A stretch of DNA of 22,001 bases. Origin: a virus. The stretch is taken from the IMG/VR virus record IMGVR_UViG_3300020601_000088, positions 1 to 22,001 of that record, one strand, 5' to 3'. Of this stretch, positions 775 through 11,194 are shown piece after piece (position 1 is the first letter of the stretch; the number at the start of each line of letters is the position of its first letter). The translations under genes and the position numbers were made by a program. The notes below the pieces were generated by a model. That model was given only the letters and a program-made list of their open reading frames with translations, had not been told where the DNA came from and searched no databases.

Positions 775-3700
775 ATGGCACAGCACCATGATTTTAAAGT
801 CAAAAATGGCCTAGTCGTAGCTGACTCAGGCACTTTCGGAAATACAATTACCGGAACAAATGCTGTCTTTACTGGCAGTGTTACTGCATCTAATATTCTC
901 GATTCTGCCGATGTTATAGGTATTATTGCATCCGAAGGACTTGATTCGAATCTAGTTATTTCTATTGTTGATTCGGCATATGTTAAATTACGAGATAGAT
1001 TTCAAGATTCTGGACTTGTAACATCTACTGTTAATAAGGCCTATGTTGATGCATTAAACATCGATGCCGATACTCTTGACGGTCAGTCTGGTACATTCTA
1101 TCTCGATTATAATAATTTTACTAATGTCCCATCTAGCAGCGGTCTTGATTCTGCTGGCGTTATTTCCCTTATCGATTCCGATTATATTGAATTAAGAAGA
1201 CCTCCAGAAACAGTATTTAATATTGTAAATAATGGTACATCTGCTTATACATTTACTGGCGATGGATTTAGTTCCAGTGCAGATAATCCTACACTTTATC
1301 TTACAAGAGGAAAAAGATATAAATTTAGCGTAAATGCTAGTGGTCATCCATTACAGATTAGACTTTCATCTGGTGGAACAACATATAATAATGGTGTATC
1401 AAATAACGGCGTACAAACTGGGACTATGTATTTTACACCAGATATGAGCGCGCCTACAAGTCTGGTATACCAATGTACTGTACACAGTGGTATGGTAGGT
1501 AACATTGTTATCTTAGATGACACTGACGCTGGATTGGACTCTGCCAATGTTATATCACTTATTGATTCAGCTTATATTCAGGCAAGACAAACGACAGGCG
1601 GTGGGTTAGACTCTGCCAGCGTTATTTCTCTTATAGATTCTGATTACGTAACTCAAAGGGTAGATTTTTCTGCAGCGTCATATAGTGCACTTGAGTTAAC
1701 TGCTGTCGCGACTGGATCAAATACTGCAACTTGGACATTTAATACAAATGATCAAGCAGAAAACTTTAGGTTGATTTTTAACGGTCTGGTATTTCCTTCA
1801 ACTTCTACTGGATCAATACTTATTTTTGAAGATGCCGCTGGGTACACATATGCGCCAGCAGATAACTATAATATCACTGGCACAGACTATACGATTACAG
1901 CCACTCGAAACAACAACGCTGTTACACTAAGTTGGGGTAGAGGTAACTTTTTCAACGCCACCGGATATCCCGGTGGATTTAGTGCGGCATTCACCGCCGG
2001 CGGTGGTAAAGTAGATCTAATCAGAGTTTGGAGTGGATTACGAAATGTTAATACTCAAGGTGGACAGAACGATCAATATCTCTTAGGAGAGCAAATATCA
2101 TCTGGTAATTATTTCGGATCAAATCCTCCAATATTCGGTGTAGAAAATGCAGCAACGGCGGTATACACATCAGTAAACAATGTTATTACTTCTACTGTTG
2201 ATTCTGCATATGTCACTGGAAGAGTAGATTTCACTGGCAATATTGATTCAGCCTATGTGCAATTAAGACAAAGCTATAACTATAACTCACTAATTAATAG
2301 ACCAGAAAAAGTAAGCACATGGTCAAACGATGCTGGTTATATAACTGATGCTAATCTCAGTGACTATAACGCTGTTACTTTTGTAGGAGAAAACCCAGAA
2401 AAAACCGAATACTGGGTAGTTCCAGCAGGTGTAACGTCTATTTCAGTAGTAGCCATCGGTGGCGGCGGTGGCGGCGGTGAAGCAGCAAGTGGAACAAATG
2501 GTATTGGTGGCGGCGGCGGACTTGCATATGACACGGCTCTTACAGTAACTCCAGGTGAAACTCTAAAGATTGTTGCCGGAAGCCGGGGCTCTGGCGGACT
2601 TGCGCCGTCTGATCCTCCTGGCTCAATTGGCACTGGTTCTGCTGGCGGTAACACATATCTTTATAGAGGTTCTAGCACAGTTCTGTTACAAGCTGATGGC
2701 GGTACTGGAGCGTCAGGGGGTACAAATGGTACTGGTGGAGACGGCGGTACCACAAAGGGATATGACGGTGGTGGTGATGGTGGTGTAAGAGGCGCAGGTC
2801 AATACAGTACTAATGGTACAGCATCAGGAGGCGCTAGCGTTTACGGATCTTCTGATACAAATTATAATTATGGTGAAGGTGGTCCAGGTCAAGGCCTCGG
2901 TCAATATGGTGCTTTAAGAATTATTTGGGGAGCAAATAGATCATATCCTAACACAAATATTACCCAGTCGTTTTTCACAATATACGATAGTGATTTAGGT
3001 AGCGGTGGTGGAACAGTTGATAGTGCAGACATCATCGCCATCGTTGATAGTGCATATGTTATAGAGAGACAACTAAAAAGTCACGCTATAGGTGGTAAGT
3101 ACAGATTTGATACTTCAACAACTGCTGGTGATCCTGGATCTGGTGACATTAGGCTCAGCATTGATTGGACTACAGGTGTTGAAGGTAGCTCTTATAATGC
3201 TTATGTTAGTGAAACAGATAAAGATGGAGTAGGGATAGCACCTTTACTTGATCAATTAACTGTTTCTACTAATACTAATAAGGCTTTAGTAATTATTTAC
3301 AAAGCAGATGCGCCTACAACAAACGCTAAATTTTATGTAACAGGACAAACTGATAATGGTTCTTATAGAACTTTAGATATCACTTATGTTGATAGAGATG
3401 CATGGGGTCAAATCTCAAATGGTGATGAAATCTTTATGTCCTTATCTATCATTGGTGATAAGGGAGATATTGGTAGTGGTATAGATTCAGCTGCTGTAAC
3501 ATCTATTATTGATTCTGATTATATTCAAGCAAGACAAACGACAGGTGGTGGCGGAATTGGAACTGTAGATTCTGCATATGTTCTTTCTGTTGTTGATTCT
3601 GCTACTCTTCCAATTACACAAAAATTCTATCACTTTACTGCAGATTCAGGTCAAACCACATTTAGTGGGTTTGATGATGATTCTGATACTCTAGTATATA

Positions 3701-6030
3701 CTGCTGGAGCACTTGCAATATACCTTAATGGTATTCTTCTTGTAGATTCAGCTGATTATACAGCTAGCAATGGTACATCAATTACTTTAACTGATGCATC
3801 AGTTGCTGGAGACGTTCTTACCGTTCAAAGATTTGGCGGTAATTCAATTTATACTAATGCAATACCATTTAGTCAAACGTTCTATCATTTTACTGCAACA
3901 GGTGGACAAACTACATTTAGTGGATCTGATGATGATGCCGACACTCTACAATATTCTGCTGGTCATATCGCAGTTTATCTTAATGGTATTCTTCTTGTAG
4001 ATTCTGCTGATTACACTGCATCTAATGGCACATCGATTGTTCTTACTGATCCTGCAGTTAATGGTGATGTTCTTTCAATTCTTAAATTCGGCGGTAATAC
4101 TGTAGGTGTCGATTCTGCTGGTATAATTAACCTAATTGATTCAGCATATATTCAGGCAAGAACAGTAGCCGGTACAGACTCTGCAGCTATTATTCAATTA
4201 ATCGATTCTGCTTATATACAAGCACGCCAGGTAGATGTTTATCGTGATTCTGGGTTTGTAACTGGTATCGTTAATTCTAGCTATATTCAAAGTTTACAAA
4301 CAACATATGATTTTCTTGATTCTGCAGAAGCCATTGCACTTATTGATTCTGCATATATTAATGCAAGGATAGGTGCCGGCACAGTAGAAGCAATTGTAGA
4401 TAGTGCTTACATTCAATTGCGTGATAGATTCCAGGATTCGGCTGGTATTCTTGCAATAGTAGATTCTGCTTATGTTCAGGCTAGACAAACAAATGTCTTT
4501 AATAATATCCATGTAAGCGGTCAAGATTCAATTGAAGCTAATTCAGCAAATGGTATATTAACATTTGAAGCCGGTCTTGGCATTACGATTACCACAGATG
4601 CAAATACGGATACAGTAACTATTGCCGGTCATGCCGAAGTTGATTCTGCATTTATTACAAATATTATTGACAGTGCTTATATCAATGGTAGAGTAAGTGC
4701 AACAGATTCAGCTTCTGTTATCTCTATAATTAATACGACTGTTGATTCAGATTATATTGGAACAAAGGTTGACTTTACTCGCGGTGAATTTGTAAATGAA
4801 AAATCACAATACACTGCGACGGCAGCACAAACAGTATTCAACCATAGTTCAATTGATCCTACTCATTTGGATGTATATCTCAATGGTATTCTTCAGGTTG
4901 CTGATGATGATTATACAGCATCAACATCTGCCGTAACATTTACTACTGGTGTTGATAGTGGTTATAGTGTTACTATTGTTGAAAAACGTGGCCGTATCCT
5001 TACTCAACGTGGATTAGTTGAAAACAAATATTACTTTACAACACCAACACCAATCACATCAATTACCGGTGCTGATGATAATGGTACTACACTTGATTAT
5101 TCTGATGGGTTCTTGGATGTTTACCTAAATGGTGTTTTGCTTAAAGATTCAGATGATTATTCTACCAATGCCGGTACCACAGTCACTCTTGTATCTGCTA
5201 CAGATTCAAATGATCTTGTTACTCTGATCAACCGTAAGGGTGTTGTTGTATCACCAAATATAAAGAATTATGAATTTACTGCTGACTCTGCTCAAACCTT
5301 ATTTACTGGATCTGATACCAATGGTAATACTTTATCATATGTTCCTGGTGCAATACAAGTTTACCTAAATGGTATTTTATTACAGAATACAGACTTTACC
5401 GCAATTAACGGTTCAAGTATTACCCTTACTTCTCCTTCAATACTTAACGATGAATTGGCTATATCTGTATTTAGTAATCCTGGTCAGAATATGGATATGT
5501 ATAAGTTTACTGCAGATTCAGGCCAAATAATCTTTAGTGGTAATGATCTTACCGGTGCATCGCTTGCGTATCAGCCTGGTAACATTCAGGTCTTTATGAA
5601 TGGTTTATTACTAAATGATTCAGATGATTATACTGCAATTAATGGTATGTCGGTTGTCCTTACAACTGGTGCTGATCTCAATGATGAAATTAAAATTGCA
5701 TCTTTTGTATCAAATGCAGATGTAATTAGAACAAATCGGATGCTATGGTCCGCGCCAAGTGGAACACCGGTTGCAGCATCTGCAGGTGATAGACTCTTTA
5801 TTGATACATCAACTGCTAAGACTGTGACACTTCCACCATCTGCAACTATGGGTGATGAAATTAGAATTATTGATGTAACAGGAAATGCATCAACTAATAA
5901 TATTACGGTATCACGAAATGGTCATAATATTCAAGGTGCAGCAAGTGATTTAACAATTAACATAGACAGAGCAGGTATTGGATTGGTTTATTACAATTCT
6001 GCTCAAGGTTGGGTACTAATAGAGAACTAA
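775..6030 (+). CDS. Giant modular tail fibre/adhesin-like structural protein (1751 aa)
   Basis: A very long beta-rich virion protein in the place of T4 gp10-gp12, inferred to be a fibre or adhesin. Residue layout: 1-40 N-terminal attachment-like segment; 98-119 an LDGQSGTFYLDY motif recurrent in marine phage fibres; 146-248 cupredoxin-like domain (His191, Cys234, His237, Met240); 300-470 unrecognised domain; 537-720 glycine-rich domain ending ALRIIWG; about 768-900 a domain with DPGSGDIRL and GDEIFMSLSIIGDKGD motifs; 951-1645 six YLNGILL-type modules; 1655-1751 C-terminal domain with AGDRLFIDTSTAKTVTLPPS and a terminal YYNSAQGWVLI, typical of marine phage fibres. Sixteen DSAYV/DSDYI motifs punctuate residues 67-1332. 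There is no signal peptide or membrane segment. The ATG at 775 follows an ATAGGGAA site and a late promoter box. The receptor is unknown. Confidence 0.85.
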   Translation: MAQHHDFKVKNGLVVADSGTFGNTITGTNAVFTGSVTASNILDSADVIGIIASEGLDSNLVISIVDSAYVKLRDRFQDSGLVTSTVNKAYVDALNIDADTLDGQSGTFYLDYNNFTNVPSSSGLDSAGVISLIDSDYIELRRPPETVFNIVNNGTSAYTFTGDGFSSSADNPTLYLTRGKRYKFSVNASGHPLQIRLSSGGTTYNNGVSNNGVQTGTMYFTPDMSAPTSLVYQCTVHSGMVGNIVILDDTDAGLDSANVISLIDSAYIQARQTTGGGLDSASVISLIDSDYVTQRVDFSAASYSALELTAVATGSNTATWTFNTNDQAENFRLIFNGLVFPSTSTGSILIFEDAAGYTYAPADNYNITGTDYTITATRNNNAVTLSWGRGNFFNATGYPGGFSAAFTAGGGKVDLIRVWSGLRNVNTQGGQNDQYLLGEQISSGNYFGSNPPIFGVENAATAVYTSVNNVITSTVDSAYVTGRVDFTGNIDSAYVQLRQSYNYNSLINRPEKVSTWSNDAGYITDANLSDYNAVTFVGENPEKTEYWVVPAGVTSISVVAIGGGGGGGEAASGTNGIGGGGGLAYDTALTVTPGETLKIVAGSRGSGGLAPSDPPGSIGTGSAGGNTYLYRGSSTVLLQADGGTGASGGTNGTGGDGGTTKGYDGGGDGGVRGAGQYSTNGTASGGASVYGSSDTNYNYGEGGPGQGLGQYGALRIIWGANRSYPNTNITQSFFTIYDSDLGSGGGTVDSADIIAIVDSAYVIERQLKSHAIGGKYRFDTSTTAGDPGSGDIRLSIDWTTGVEGSSYNAYVSETDKDGVGIAPLLDQLTVSTNTNKALVIIYKADAPTTNAKFYVTGQTDNGSYRTLDITYVDRDAWGQISNGDEIFMSLSIIGDKGDIGSGIDSAAVTSIIDSDYIQARQTTGGGGIGTVDSAYVLSVVDSATLPITQKFYHFTADSGQTTFSGFDDDSDTLVYTAGALAIYLNGILLVDSADYTASNGTSITLTDASVAGDVLTVQRFGGNSIYTNAIPFSQTFYHFTATGGQTTFSGSDDDADTLQYSAGHIAVYLNGILLVDSADYTASNGTSIVLTDPAVNGDVLSILKFGGNTVGVDSAGIINLIDSAYIQARTVAGTDSAAIIQLIDSAYIQARQVDVYRDSGFVTGIVNSSYIQSLQTTYDFLDSAEAIALIDSAYINARIGAGTVEAIVDSAYIQLRDRFQDSAGILAIVDSAYVQARQTNVFNNIHVSGQDSIEANSANGILTFEAGLGITITTDANTDTVTIAGHAEVDSAFITNIIDSAYINGRVSATDSASVISIINTTVDSDYIGTKVDFTRGEFVNEKSQYTATAAQTVFNHSSIDPTHLDVYLNGILQVADDDYTASTSAVTFTTGVDSGYSVTIVEKRGRILTQRGLVENKYYFTTPTPITSITGADDNGTTLDYSDGFLDVYLNGVLLKDSDDYSTNAGTTVTLVSATDSNDLVTLINRKGVVVSPNIKNYEFTADSAQTLFTGSDTNGNTLSYVPGAIQVYLNGILLQNTDFTAINGSSITLTSPSILNDELAISVFSNPGQNMDMYKFTADSGQIIFSGNDLTGASLAYQPGNIQVFMNGLLLNDSDDYTAINGMSVVLTTGADLNDEIKIASFVSNADVIRTNRMLWSAPSGTPVAASAGDRLFIDTSTAKTVTLPPSATMGDEIRIIDVTGNASTNNITVSRNGHNIQGAASDLTINIDRAGIGLVYYNSAQGWVLIEN
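1210..1518 (+). other. Cupredoxin-like domain encoded within the giant fibre gene
   Basis: Residues 146-248 read as a small beta-barrel with the order of a type-1 copper site: an early His (SGHPL, His191), then a strand ending in Y-Q-C-T-V-H-S-G-M-V-G (Cys234, His237, Met240). The Cys-x2-His-x2-Met spacing and the GMVG turn resemble plastocyanin-type proteins. Similar domains recur in marine phage structural proteins as far as I recall. Copper binding is not demonstrated, and the fold may be used only as a structural or binding unit. Confidence 0.6.
2383..2934 (+). other. Glycine-rich domain encoded within the giant fibre gene
   Basis: Residues 537-720 begin with a strand-forming WVVPAGVTSISVVAIGG motif and run into a long stretch of Gly with Ala, Ser, Thr and Asn. 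The segment closes with YGALRIIWG. It includes two oligo-Gly runs (562-568 and 578-582) and VTPGETLKIVAG between them. This layout matches the glycine-rich domains of phage adhesins, where Gly-rich loops can form the receptor-binding surface. The Gly codons are mainly GGC and GGT, making the DNA locally GC-rich. Confidence 0.7.
3625..5709 (+). repeat. Six YLNGILL-type modules (about 60-72 residues each) in the giant fibre gene
   Basis: Approximate module bounds are 3625-3837, 3880-4095, 4810-4989, 5029-5235, 5269-5475 and 5500-5709. Each has an aromatic/FTA start, a (T/S)G-x-DD turn, a (V/I)(Y/F)(L/M)NG(I/V)L(L/Q) core, a D(Y/F)(T/S) turn and a closing hydrophobic strand. The first two are 255 bases apart and very similar in DNA, indicating recent tandem duplication. 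The third and fourth are more divergent. DSA-type motifs separate the second and third copies. A beta-rich fibre repeat is the likely role. Confidence 0.8.
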
Positions 6031-6031
6031 T

Positions 6032-8530
6032 ATGGCAACATTATCATCAATAAGAAGTGCAGCAATAGAAGATACGGGATTTAGTAGCGGATTAGATTCA
6101 GCTCAAGTAACTGCAATTGCTGGAGAAGTAGGACTTTCAGTATATTCTACACTGGATGATTTGCCTACAACTGGATTAACATCTGGCGATCAAGCATTTG
6201 TATCCTCCACGAATAGATTTTATATCTCAAACGGATCAGGTTGGTATAATGTTGCTTTAGTTAATGCAACACCAACATTGGTTGTGAGTCCGACAGGCAC
6301 AGTTGCATTAGCAATTGATGGATCTACACCTACGGTAATTACTCTTACTGCTACAGATTCAGATAACGCGGATGCTAGCTTGACTTATAGTGTTGAATCA
6401 GATGGTTCATTTGCCGGACTTGGCACAATCAGTCAAGATTCTAGTGTGTTTACAATCACACCATTAAGCGAAGATAGTGCTACAACAGAAACATCTACCC
6501 TTACATTTAAAGCATCAGACGGAATTTCATTTGGATCTGGTACAACTACGTTTACATTGACATTTATAACAACTATAGAAAATTCCAATTATACTACACT
6601 TCTATTGAAAAATGAAGAAACAACAGATAACCAGGTTGATGCTTCAACCAATAATCATACTATTACAGAAAACGGTAATGTAACTTCAACAGCATTCGCA
6701 CCATATAATCCTGGTGGATATAGTGTTGCCTTTGCTGGATCAGATGACTATATAGGATTTGATAATGGTTATATAGCAACCAATGGTACGTGGTGGAATT
6801 CTTCAGGTTTTACATTAGAATTGTGGTTCTACAAAACAGTCTCAACAGGTACTACTGGGACAGTATTTGACAATAGACAATCTCCTACTAATGGATTTTT
6901 ACTTACTAATAAAAACACTGGATGGGATATGTATCTCAATGGTGGCTATTTGTTTCAAAGTGTAGGTACTGAAAAAGTAGGACAATGGGTACATCTGGCA
7001 TTAGTTGCTAGTGGTACAACTGTTACTCTTTATGAAGACGGGACATCTATATACACTACTGGATCAGCACCGAATACATCGTCCTATGCTTATTTTGGTA
7101 GAAGTCAAAATACTGTAGGTGCAGTACAATACACCCCTCGTGGTACCAACGTCGACTGGCCAGGGTATATGTATGATATTCGAATTTCTTCTGGATCAAG
7201 GTACACAACAGCGTTTACACCGTCAGAAACACCTCATGAAAATGATGGTAATACAATATTATTAGCATGTTCATCACCTATGCTTAAAGATAAATCATCT
7301 AATAATCATGAAATTACTGTATTTGGTGATGGTATTAGTACTGCTAGATTTACCCCGCATGATCATGATCCTTACACAAAAGCAGATCACGGTGGTTCAG
7401 TATACTTTGATGGTACTAGTGATTATCTATCATTTACTATGACTTCGGATTTTAGTTTAACTGGTGATTTTACTCTTGAATGTTGGTTTAAACCTAATTC
7501 TATCACAGTAGATACACAACACCCTAATTTAATTATACTGGGAACCTATCAACTATATTTAAACTCTTCTACTAATTTTGTCGGTGTATCTCCTGACGGT
7601 TTATCCATTACTTTGCAAAGCAATGCTCAAACTATTAAACCTAATTTATGGTATCACGCTGCAGTAGTAAGGTCTGGTACATCAGAAGCTCTGTTTTTAA
7701 ATGGTGTTAGGGTTGATACTAATACAGCATCTACGAATTATGGAGCATCTAGTGGTACTTCTTATATAGGAAGTTATAATGGAACTGGTGGTGATTATAA
7801 CGGATACATAACAGATCTTAGATTAGTGAATGGTACTGCTGTTTATGATCCATCTCAAACTACAGTTACCATACCAACAGCTCCTTTAACTGCAATAACA
7901 AATACAAAATTACTTACATGTACAAATAAAAATGATATCTGGGATGCTGGTTCTGGTAATCGATTAACTAAAGCAGGTAATGTAACTGGTGGTGCTAATT
8001 CTGGTACACTTAAATTTGGTAAGACTGCAGTATATTTTGACGGTACTGGTGATTATTTAAATACAAATAGCAATGATTTACTAGCTTTGGGAACTGGAGA
8101 TTTTACTGTAGAATGCTGGGTAAATAAGTCAGATACAAACCATAGAGGAATATTTCAAATTGGATCAGACGCGAGTGGTTTAGACACAAATTATACAGTG
8201 ACATTAGGATTTGGCTGGGGGAATTCAACTGCATGGCAAATTTATGCAGGTGGCTCCGCCACTAATGGAAGTACTTTTTCGTTATCTACAGATACTTGGT
8301 ATCATGCTGCTGTAGTTAGAAGCAGTGGTACTACAAAATTATATATTGACGGCACAGAAGAAATTTCTATATCAGACTCACAAAATTATGCAGGTACTTA
8401 CATGGCTATTGGTGGTTACTATAGTACTACTTATTTACATAATGGTTATATTCAAGACCTAAGAGTCACAAAAGGTTTAGCCAGATACACCGCTAACTTT
8501 ACACCACCAACTACAGAATTTGAGGCCTAG
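6032..8530 (+). CDS. Multi-LamG adhesin-like virion protein (832 aa), at the position of T4 wac
   Basis: A large surface-type protein without signal peptide or membrane segment. Residues 20-30 hold a DSAQV motif. Residues 40-80 hold a segment with DDLPTTGLTSGDQAFV and FYISNGSGWYNVAL, recurrent near the ends of marine phage fibre proteins. Residues 80-180 resemble an Ig/cadherin-like repeat (LTATDSDNADASLTYSV; LTFKASDG). Three concanavalin/LamG-like domains follow, at about 186-400, 408-610 and 626-826; each has a (V/Y)(A/Y)F(A/D)G(S/T)xDY strand, a (F)T(L/V)E(L/C)W(F/V) strand, a W(V/Y)H(L/A)A(L/V)V strand and a YI-x-D-(I/L)R end. LamG folds commonly bind glycans, so a host-surface or accessory binding role is inferred. 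The ATG is 1 base after the preceding stop, suggesting coupling. The protein is not recognisably T4 fibritin. Confidence 0.8.
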   Translation: MATLSSIRSAAIEDTGFSSGLDSAQVTAIAGEVGLSVYSTLDDLPTTGLTSGDQAFVSSTNRFYISNGSGWYNVALVNATPTLVVSPTGTVALAIDGSTPTVITLTATDSDNADASLTYSVESDGSFAGLGTISQDSSVFTITPLSEDSATTETSTLTFKASDGISFGSGTTTFTLTFITTIENSNYTTLLLKNEETTDNQVDASTNNHTITENGNVTSTAFAPYNPGGYSVAFAGSDDYIGFDNGYIATNGTWWNSSGFTLELWFYKTVSTGTTGTVFDNRQSPTNGFLLTNKNTGWDMYLNGGYLFQSVGTEKVGQWVHLALVASGTTVTLYEDGTSIYTTGSAPNTSSYAYFGRSQNTVGAVQYTPRGTNVDWPGYMYDIRISSGSRYTTAFTPSETPHENDGNTILLACSSPMLKDKSSNNHEITVFGDGISTARFTPHDHDPYTKADHGGSVYFDGTSDYLSFTMTSDFSLTGDFTLECWFKPNSITVDTQHPNLIILGTYQLYLNSSTNFVGVSPDGLSITLQSNAQTIKPNLWYHAAVVRSGTSEALFLNGVRVDTNTASTNYGASSGTSYIGSYNGTGGDYNGYITDLRLVNGTAVYDPSQTTVTIPTAPLTAITNTKLLTCTNKNDIWDAGSGNRLTKAGNVTGGANSGTLKFGKTAVYFDGTGDYLNTNSNDLLALGTGDFTVECWVNKSDTNHRGIFQIGSDASGLDTNYTVTLGFGWGNSTAWQIYAGGSATNGSTFSLSTDTWYHAAVVRSSGTTKLYIDGTEEISISDSQNYAGTYMAIGGYYSTTYLHNGYIQDLRVTKGLARYTANFTPPTTEFEA

Positions 8531-9347: not shown

Positions 9348-9944
9348 ATGGCTCGTAATTTATATTTCTCTGAAAAGGTTAGATCAGAAATGGATCTATA
9401 CGAGAACCTCGTTATTGAGGCTCTTAAGATCTATGGACAGGATATCTATTACCTACCAAGAAGTTTAGTAAATGAAGATAAATTACTTGGAGACGACGTA
9501 GCATCTCTATTTCCTCATTCTCATAAAATTGAAATGTATATCGAGAATGTAGAAGGATTTGACGGTGAAGGTGATCTCTATACCCGTTTTGGCGTTGAAA
9601 TTAGAGATGAAGTAACACTAGTGGTGTCTAAGCAAAGATTTGCTACACAAGTAAGAAGACCAGATAATGCAATTGAAGTTGAGAGGCCGGCCGAAGGTGA
9701 CCTCATTTATATTCCTCTAACAAATAAAATGTTTCAAATTCAGCATGTTGAACATGAACAGCCATTTTATCAAATAGAAAATTTACCTGTCTATAAAATG
9801 CGTTGTACTCTGTTTGAATATAGTGGTGAAGATTTCGATACGGGAGTTCAAGGTATCGATGACATCGAAAGAAAATATGCATACCAGTATAAAGTGACTC
9901 TAAAAGCTCCTAGGAATGCAACTGGAACAGCGAGTATTACGTAA
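9348..9944 (+). CDS. 14: gp14-like neck protein, core part
   Basis: The 198-residue product matches the gp14 core: N-terminal NLYFSEKVRSEMDLYENLVIE, then IYYLPRSL, DVASLFPHSHKIEMYIENVEG and a DEVTLVVSKQRF strand, followed by a GDLIYIPLTNKMFQI strand. T4 gp14 shows the corresponding YYVPR, EGYEG, DEVTLSI and EGDLIYFP elements in the same order. It acts with gp13 in the neck. The protein is shorter than T4 gp14 (256 aa) and stops just after a TASIT strand. The next ORF starts in the overlapping TAATG and looks like its C-terminal continuation. The gene begins 4 bases after gp13. Confidence 0.88.
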   Translation: MARNLYFSEKVRSEMDLYENLVIEALKIYGQDIYYLPRSLVNEDKLLGDDVASLFPHSHKIEMYIENVEGFDGEGDLYTRFGVEIRDEVTLVVSKQRFATQVRRPDNAIEVERPAEGDLIYIPLTNKMFQIQHVEHEQPFYQIENLPVYKMRCTLFEYSGEDFDTGVQGIDDIERKYAYQYKVTLKAPRNATGTASIT

Positions 9945-11194
9945 TGGGTGTAGTAACTAGTTTAACAATTACAGATTCCGGAAATTACTATCAGTATAAT
10001 CCGTCTGTGCATTTGTCATTTCCTAATATCGATAGTGATTATGCCGGAATTGATAGCCAAGATTTTAAATTTGGTTATAGCTCCTTAGTACATGATTCTT
10101 CTAATACTAGTACTATTGCTACTCTTACAGATAGCTATGGTGGTATAAATCAACAAATTGCTGAGATAGCATTTTGGATTAAACCGACATTCATTGAAGC
10201 TTCTACAATTCTGTGGTCAGATGATTTTAGAATTGTTATGGATAGTTACGGTTATGCGGGTATGGTATTCAATGTTGATTCAACTATCTATCAAGATGCA
10301 CATGCAGTTGGAGTAACCCAAACTGTTTTTAATACGAGTCTTCCGCTTGATTCGGGTGCATGGAATTTTATTCATTTTGAATTATTAAAAAATACATTTA
10401 GAGCAAATGTTAATACACAAATAGGTCCAAGCACTAATGTAAATATTGAATTAAACCCACCTTATGATAGTGGTGACATTTTTAGAGTTGGTAAAGACTT
10501 AGCTAATATTTCTCCTATTGCTACTAAACCAGGAATTCAAATCCCAAGTAAAAGTTTTACTGGACAATTTGACCACTTTACATTTACAAAAAAATCTGCT
10601 CAACCTATCTTTGATAATATTTGGTCAACTCGAGTTCCTGTTGATAGCGATGATTACTATTATAACCAAGTTCCGGAAATTAAAGTTGGATTTGATTATA
10701 AAAGAGCCACTGCTCGAGCAACTATTGATAGCTCAATTGGAGAAGTAAATGGTTTATTTGTAATCGACGGAGGATTTGGTTATGATTCTGCACCTATTGT
10801 TACAATATCAAGCGGAAGATCTTTAAACTTTGATAGCTCATACGAAATTGGAGATAGTGTAACCCAGACTCTGTCTTCAGGTGTTATTATGAGAGGTGAG
10901 GTTCAGAGATATCAACTTGATTCTTCCAATGATTTAAATCGTTATCTATATCTTGCTCATGTGGGATCAGACGACGGTAAATTTACTACATTTACTGCAA
11001 GCAATCCTACAGTATTAAGTAGTCGACTTAGTAAAACAAATCCTTCCTATTCAATAGGTCTAGAAGTCATATCTGCTACTGAAATAAATACATTATCTGA
11101 AGGCGAACAGAATGAATTATTTACTGAACAATTTGTAGATGATTTCCTTGACTTTAGTGAAGATAACCCATTTGGTGATCCGGAGAATCAATAA
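9944..11194 (+). CDS. Probable detached gp14 C-terminal extension with LamG-like insertion (416 aa)
   Basis: The product begins with a beta repeat (VTSLTITDSGNYYQYNPSVHLS); a second copy of this type occurs at residues 265-290 (GLFVIDGGFGYDSAPIVTIS). Between them, residues about 41-218 look LamG/concanavalin-like (FGYSSLVHDSS, EIAFWIKPT, WNFIHFELLKN, FTGQFDHFTFTK). Residues 298-372 form another domain (EIGDSVTQTL, LYLAHVGSDDGKF). The acidic end (FVDDFLDFSEDNPFGDPE) resembles gp14 C-termini of marine T4-like phages as I recall them. The gene overlaps gp14 and gp15 by one base each (TAATG at both ends), implying translational coupling. It could be a neck-attached decoration or fibre protein, or the second half of a split gp14. 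Confidence 0.7.
   Translation: MGVVTSLTITDSGNYYQYNPSVHLSFPNIDSDYAGIDSQDFKFGYSSLVHDSSNTSTIATLTDSYGGINQQIAEIAFWIKPTFIEASTILWSDDFRIVMDSYGYAGMVFNVDSTIYQDAHAVGVTQTVFNTSLPLDSGAWNFIHFELLKNTFRANVNTQIGPSTNVNIELNPPYDSGDIFRVGKDLANISPIATKPGIQIPSKSFTGQFDHFTFTKKSAQPIFDNIWSTRVPVDSDDYYYNQVPEIKVGFDYKRATARATIDSSIGEVNGLFVIDGGFGYDSAPIVTISSGRSLNFDSSYEIGDSVTQTLSSGVIMRGEVQRYQLDSSNDLNRYLYLAHVGSDDGKFTTFTASNPTVLSSRLSKTNPSYSIGLEVISATEINTLSEGEQNELFTEQFVDDFLDFSEDNPFGDPENQ

Follow-up and report, generated by a model that had tools for sequence, protein, structure and literature searches.

A predicted cupredoxin domain with a conserved type-1-like ligand set in a tail-fibre-like protein of a T4-like marine myophage

Does a tail-fibre-like protein of a marine phage carry a copper site, and, if so, what would the metal do there? 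The question is raised by a giant protein encoded in a 22,001-nucleotide stretch of viral DNA (positions 1 to 22,001 of IMG/VR record IMGVR_UViG_3300020601_000088, here called the window). A preliminary description had proposed that residues 146-248 of this protein form a cupredoxin-like domain with an apparently complete set of type-1 copper ligands. The four residues in question, His191, Cys234, His237 and Met240, are all found where that description had placed them (Table 1).

Table 1. The predicted domain, its ligand residues and neighbouring features in the window
Feature	Position	Strand	Basis
Giant tail-fibre-like protein, 1,751 aa, carrier of the domain	775..6030	+	Open frame; PHROG tail matches
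Predicted cupredoxin domain, residues 146-248	1210..1518	+	AlphaFold2, Foldseek, VIA-align, PHROG_677, PDB profile search
His191, first ligand, in GHP	1345..1347	+	Sequence; conserved
Cys234, sole cysteine of the 1,751-aa protein	1474..1476	+	Sequence; conserved
His237, second histidine ligand	1483..1485	+	Sequence; conserved
Met240, candidate axial ligand; also present in the lineage without the other three	1492..1494	+	Sequence
Left linker, LDSAGVISLIDSDYIELRRPPE; in sibling contig L001 the second copy follows a near-identical linker	1144..1209	+	
Right linker with DSA repeat	1519..1590	+	
Cassette site in the upstream gene; 22 bp in the window, 397 bp (1787-2183) with a second cupredoxin domain in L001	371..392	+	DNA comparison

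The giant protein and its genomic setting

The window derives from a T4-like marine myophage. The terminase that it encodes shares 74% identity with that of Phage C48C1, which is classed in the Kyanoviridae, and the downstream genes are arranged as in C48C1: neck, sheath stabiliser, terminase, sheath, tube, portal, protease, scaffold and capsid. The gene of the giant protein is situated upstream of the T4-like neck genes, and its product matches the PHROG tail families phrog_677, 21412 and 38058. Given this position and these matches, "phage fibre" is a fair label, and the protein is likely a fibre. DSA..IDSAYI linkers recur along it. The T4 gp9/gp10 N-terminal domain (PF07880) was absent in the domain search of the protein.

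Further along the same protein, a glycine-rich domain (PF21722, E 6.5e-8) occupies residues 545-723 (window 2407-2943). The gene adjoining the fibre gene (window 6032-8530) encodes a protein with three concanavalin A-like (Laminin_G_3) stretches, which makes its product a candidate carbohydrate-binding protein. The head-closure protein (Hc2, T4 neck) appears to be split into two open reading frames, 9348-9944 and 9944-11194, that overlap by one base. These match positions 14-207 and 234-377, respectively, of the 385 positions of PHROG_460, and a weak LamG-like stretch lies between the two matches. In C48C1 the locus is occupied by one gene of 879 bp. The pair of frames may represent a real split, an insertion or a frameshift.

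Fold and ligand arrangement of the domain

Residues 146-248 are predicted, with high confidence, to be a cupredoxin domain. The AlphaFold2 model, calculated from an alignment of the window domain with 42 relatives, has a mean pLDDT of 84.9, reaching 93-98 in the 10-residue blocks of the core. Upon comparing the model with the PDB using Foldseek, all 42 matches at E<=0.001 were found, judging by their titles, to be cupredoxins or proteins with cupredoxin domains, including nitrite reductase, cytochrome oxidase and supercomplexes, laccases, AcoP, rusticyanin, plastocyanin and amicyanin. The best match in VIA-align is the N-terminal domain of the Hyphomicrobium denitrificans nitrite reductase, a redox enzyme (2dv6 residues 24-137; Z 11.0, rmsd 2.2 Å over 98 residues, 24% identity). 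The pLDDT values and both structural comparisons place the modelled residues within the cupredoxin fold superfamily.

The sequence profile of the family leads to the same fold. Copper proteins account for 42 of its 43 matches among PDB sequences at E<1, and in the printed alignments the C, H and M fall on the blue-copper ligands. The first histidine coincides with the ligand histidine in some of these alignments and is two positions off in that with 2plt. The domain is included in PHROG_677, where its fold is unnamed, and is covered by positions 307-410 of the 412 in that profile (E 5.1e-32). The window domain has no match to the Pfam Copper-bind model PF00127 at E<=1 or to any NCBIfam model. 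PF00127 does match 10 of the 43 relatives (best E 0.00042), and the amicyanin, halocyanin, plastocyanin and Copper-bind models give weak matches in some relatives.

His191 is situated in the sequence GHPLQI, and the other three ligands in QCTVHSGMVG. Between residues 6 and 769 of the giant protein, the only histidines are His191 and His237, and the C..H..M motif occurs once across all 18 coding sequences of the window. The lone cysteine, the two histidines and the unique motif show that the ligand pattern did not arise by chance, an explanation also ruled out by the invariance of the residues described below. His-Cys-His-Met thus stand in the order, and in the kind of loop, of type-1 copper proteins. 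The order is plastocyanin-like, as had been suggested; the spacing is not that of plastocyanin, because the loop, C-x2-H-x2-M, has two residues fewer than the plastocyanin loop in the profile alignment. This spacing is that of amicyanin. The loop also aligns without gaps with the CTPHPFM loop of the NirK entry 2vmj. The cupredoxin-like fold and the complete ligand set of the preliminary description are therefore backed by the model, the fold search, the profile search and the conservation of the ligands.

The domain shares its predicted fold, its ligand order and the Cys-x2-His spacing with type-1 blue copper proteins such as amicyanin and plastocyanin. However, these are secreted single-domain electron carriers, whereas the phage domain is part of a virion protein. 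Unlike them, the phage domain has an invariant proline after the first histidine (HP). Outside phages, the C-terminal domain of Gillisia lipoproteins is 50-53% identical and has all four ligands, and is situated behind CHRD domains. The Gillisia proteins are chromosomal bacterial proteins with a lipoprotein-like signal (judged by eye).

Conservation and loss of the ligands

Free variation of the cysteine and histidines among homologues, which the preliminary description had named as evidence against a copper site, was not seen: these residues are nearly invariant, and their losses are mostly joint. To avoid circularity, the HMM was built with the four ligand columns masked. In loci that were sampled by sequence similarity, often via the copper loop, and so are not a random sample, HCHM is found in 180 of the 211 distinct domains in which each of the four positions is aligned; after clustering, all four ligands are kept in 32 of 33 representatives at 60% identity and in 15 of 15 at 50%. 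The masked HMM is able to find ligandless copies, since a ligandless lineage was recovered. Across the family, the exceptions are one clade and two single sequences. The ligands rank with the most conserved positions of the domain but share that rank with others: Pro47, Tyr87 and Pro27 (domain numbering) show the same invariance. As the methionine and neighbouring proline and tyrosine residues are as conserved as the ligands, the conservation may partly serve folding. Cysteine is about nine times as dense inside the domain as elsewhere in the same reading frames (11.7 versus 1.3 per 1,000).

The deviating clade (support 0.937) is a tail-fibre lineage comprising S-B43 and its relatives, with 29 distinct domains, and adjoins Bellamy, which retains HCHM. 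In this lineage the His, Cys and His are replaced by Phe, by Ala or Ser, and by Val, Thr or Ile, respectively, while the Met is kept. The homology of the ligandless domain rests on its 47% identity to the Bellamy domain; its model is a weak prediction (mean pLDDT 69.8) and has no Foldseek matches at E<=0.001. Parsimony gives three ligand losses among 100 representatives, two of which involve two or three ligands at once. The losses other than that of the S-B43 lineage are single sequences, HSNM and HCYM, which could be sequencing errors.

Both states occur in RB11-B. Its tail-fibre copy belongs to the ligandless lineage and is 92% identical to the S-B43 domain, and its second copy is intact (GAHPFEI...YYQCTSHAGM) and is part of a protein with the gp9/10 N-terminal domain (PF07880). 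The joint loss in the S-B43 lineage and the two copies of RB11-B indicate that the three strong ligands act as a single site. They also indicate that the homologous domain survives loss of the site, which is then filled by mainly hydrophobic residues. Related fibres with or without the site, even inside one genome, thus form a natural experiment. Since the methionine is invariant where His, Cys and His are lost, Met240 is weak evidence and was rejected as independent support for a copper site.

The persistence of the ligandless domain is in keeping with a metal-free beta-sandwich that serves adhesion or as a spacer, its His, Cys and His being kept for packing or as a cupredoxin relic. The promiscuous use of the domain in fibres, and the description of some relatives in BFVD merely as immunoglobulin-domain or beta-sandwich proteins, point the same way. 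However, a relic should lose its ligands singly and often, whereas the losses are few and two of the three affect several ligands together; moreover, the ligands are invariant among sequences that are less than 50% identical. A metal-free domain is unlikely.

A shuffled module and the possible role of a metal

Of 50,697 phage records searched, 355 contain the domain, and nearly all of these are from Synechococcus or Prochlorococcus phages; the preliminary description was thus correct that other structural proteins of marine phages have similar domains. Further queries added one Pelagibacter phage and one Actinomycetia phage, and a query without the copper loop gave few IMG/VR loci and many phage records. 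No copy of the domain was found in the plasmids searched. In the gp9-like connectors of PHROG_677 a domain of the same sequence family and with the same ligands forms the C-terminus. The connectors (P-SSM4 gp9, RB11-B) begin with the T4 gp9/gp10 N-terminal domain, whereas in the window the cupredoxin domain is internal to a protein that lacks it. Elsewhere the domain comes after collagen-like repeats, is flanked by QAN or DSA repeats, or is found at the ends of subtilases and at the start of a podovirus protein, and coiled regions also neighbour it in some phage proteins.

The sibling contig L001 matches the window at 99.9% identity over 4.1 kb. At the cassette site in the upstream gene (Table 1) the two differ by the second cupredoxin domain, and on the far side of this site the identity steps from 99.9% to 92%. 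The difference shows that a cassette was gained, lost or exchanged between near-identical phages. In marine T4-like phages the domain serves as an exchangeable unit of the adsorption apparatus, that is, of fibres and gp9-like baseplate connectors.

The reading that we favour, at somewhat better than even odds, is that this cupredoxin module of the adsorption apparatus has an intact short-loop type-1-like metal site in which copper is mainly stabilising. The ligands are nearly unchanged across hundreds of marine phages, suggesting that the host-attachment parts hold copper, and the site probably binds one copper ion. Phage proteins fold in a reducing cytoplasm in which copper is scarce, which counts against copper. 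The metal would be bound either in the cell or after release and would statically stabilise the exposed beta-sandwich, leaving the outer surface of the domain free for protein or host-surface contacts. That copper acts mainly as such a static stabiliser and not as an electron carrier is a tentative proposal, to be given slightly less than an even chance. Two observations favour it: the module is found at positions that are unrelated, and mainly hydrophobic residues occupy the lost site, as would suit a structural role.

Alternatively, the domain may be a redox or copper-sensing device, in which Cu(I)/Cu(II) cycling or the gain or loss of copper alters the attachment or conformation of the fibre, either at the cell surface or when the phage is released into sea water. 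Its closest folds and profiles are those of electron-transfer proteins, its ligands are strongly conserved, and the hosts of the cultured records are mostly cyanobacterial. Nevertheless, there is no partner or redox gene nearby within the window, the module occupies many unrelated positions, and one lineage manages without the site, all of which makes this role improbable. Equally improbable is a reading in which the adsorption machinery of many marine cyanophages is an assembly of copper metalloproteins, with fibre stability or attachment governed by its copper state (loading or redox), so that infectivity is tied to copper in sea water. Copper sensing and host binding by the domain, both raised earlier, have no direct support. 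Binding of a different metal (zinc, or only Cu(I)) or a chemistry of the lone cysteine such as cross-linking is very unlikely: cysteine and histidine do bind several metals and the identity of a metal cannot be read from sequence, but both the short loop and the complete order of the ligands can be aligned with blue-copper sites, and cross-linking would give no reason for the two histidines to be conserved, or to disappear along with the cysteine.

Should the site hold copper as favoured here, several hundred sequenced marine phages, most of them cyanophages, would have metalloproteins as host-attachment parts, and copper chemistry would gain a place in phage adsorption or virion stability. 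Cupredoxins are well known. Structural proteins of phages that contain a cupredoxin module with a conserved site are apparently undescribed in the open-licence literature, which was covered mostly by titles and abstracts. Cyanophages are known to encode the plastocyanin PetE as a metabolic gene (PMC3037559). PetE is also a copper protein, but is a stand-alone photosynthetic electron carrier and not a structural domain (PMC3037559). The main text of the same paper does not name gp9 in its virion proteomics.

Some additional sequences resemble the domain. The Gemmatimonadales matches (L131-L133) were not accepted as members of the family, because they match only around the copper loop. In S-SSM4 and S-RIM14 (L134 and L149) a large structural protein encoded after the gp9-like gene has a distant second cupredoxin-like sequence (ANHPLALS...YFCRYHALM and GHGILFS...YYFCYNHANM). 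In a fibre-like protein of S-CAM1 (L066), a C..H..M tail (YWYQCTAHPNM) is immediately followed by a domain start, STHPFEI, that contains the first histidine and lacks a clear copper loop; this is possibly a rearranged or permuted copy.
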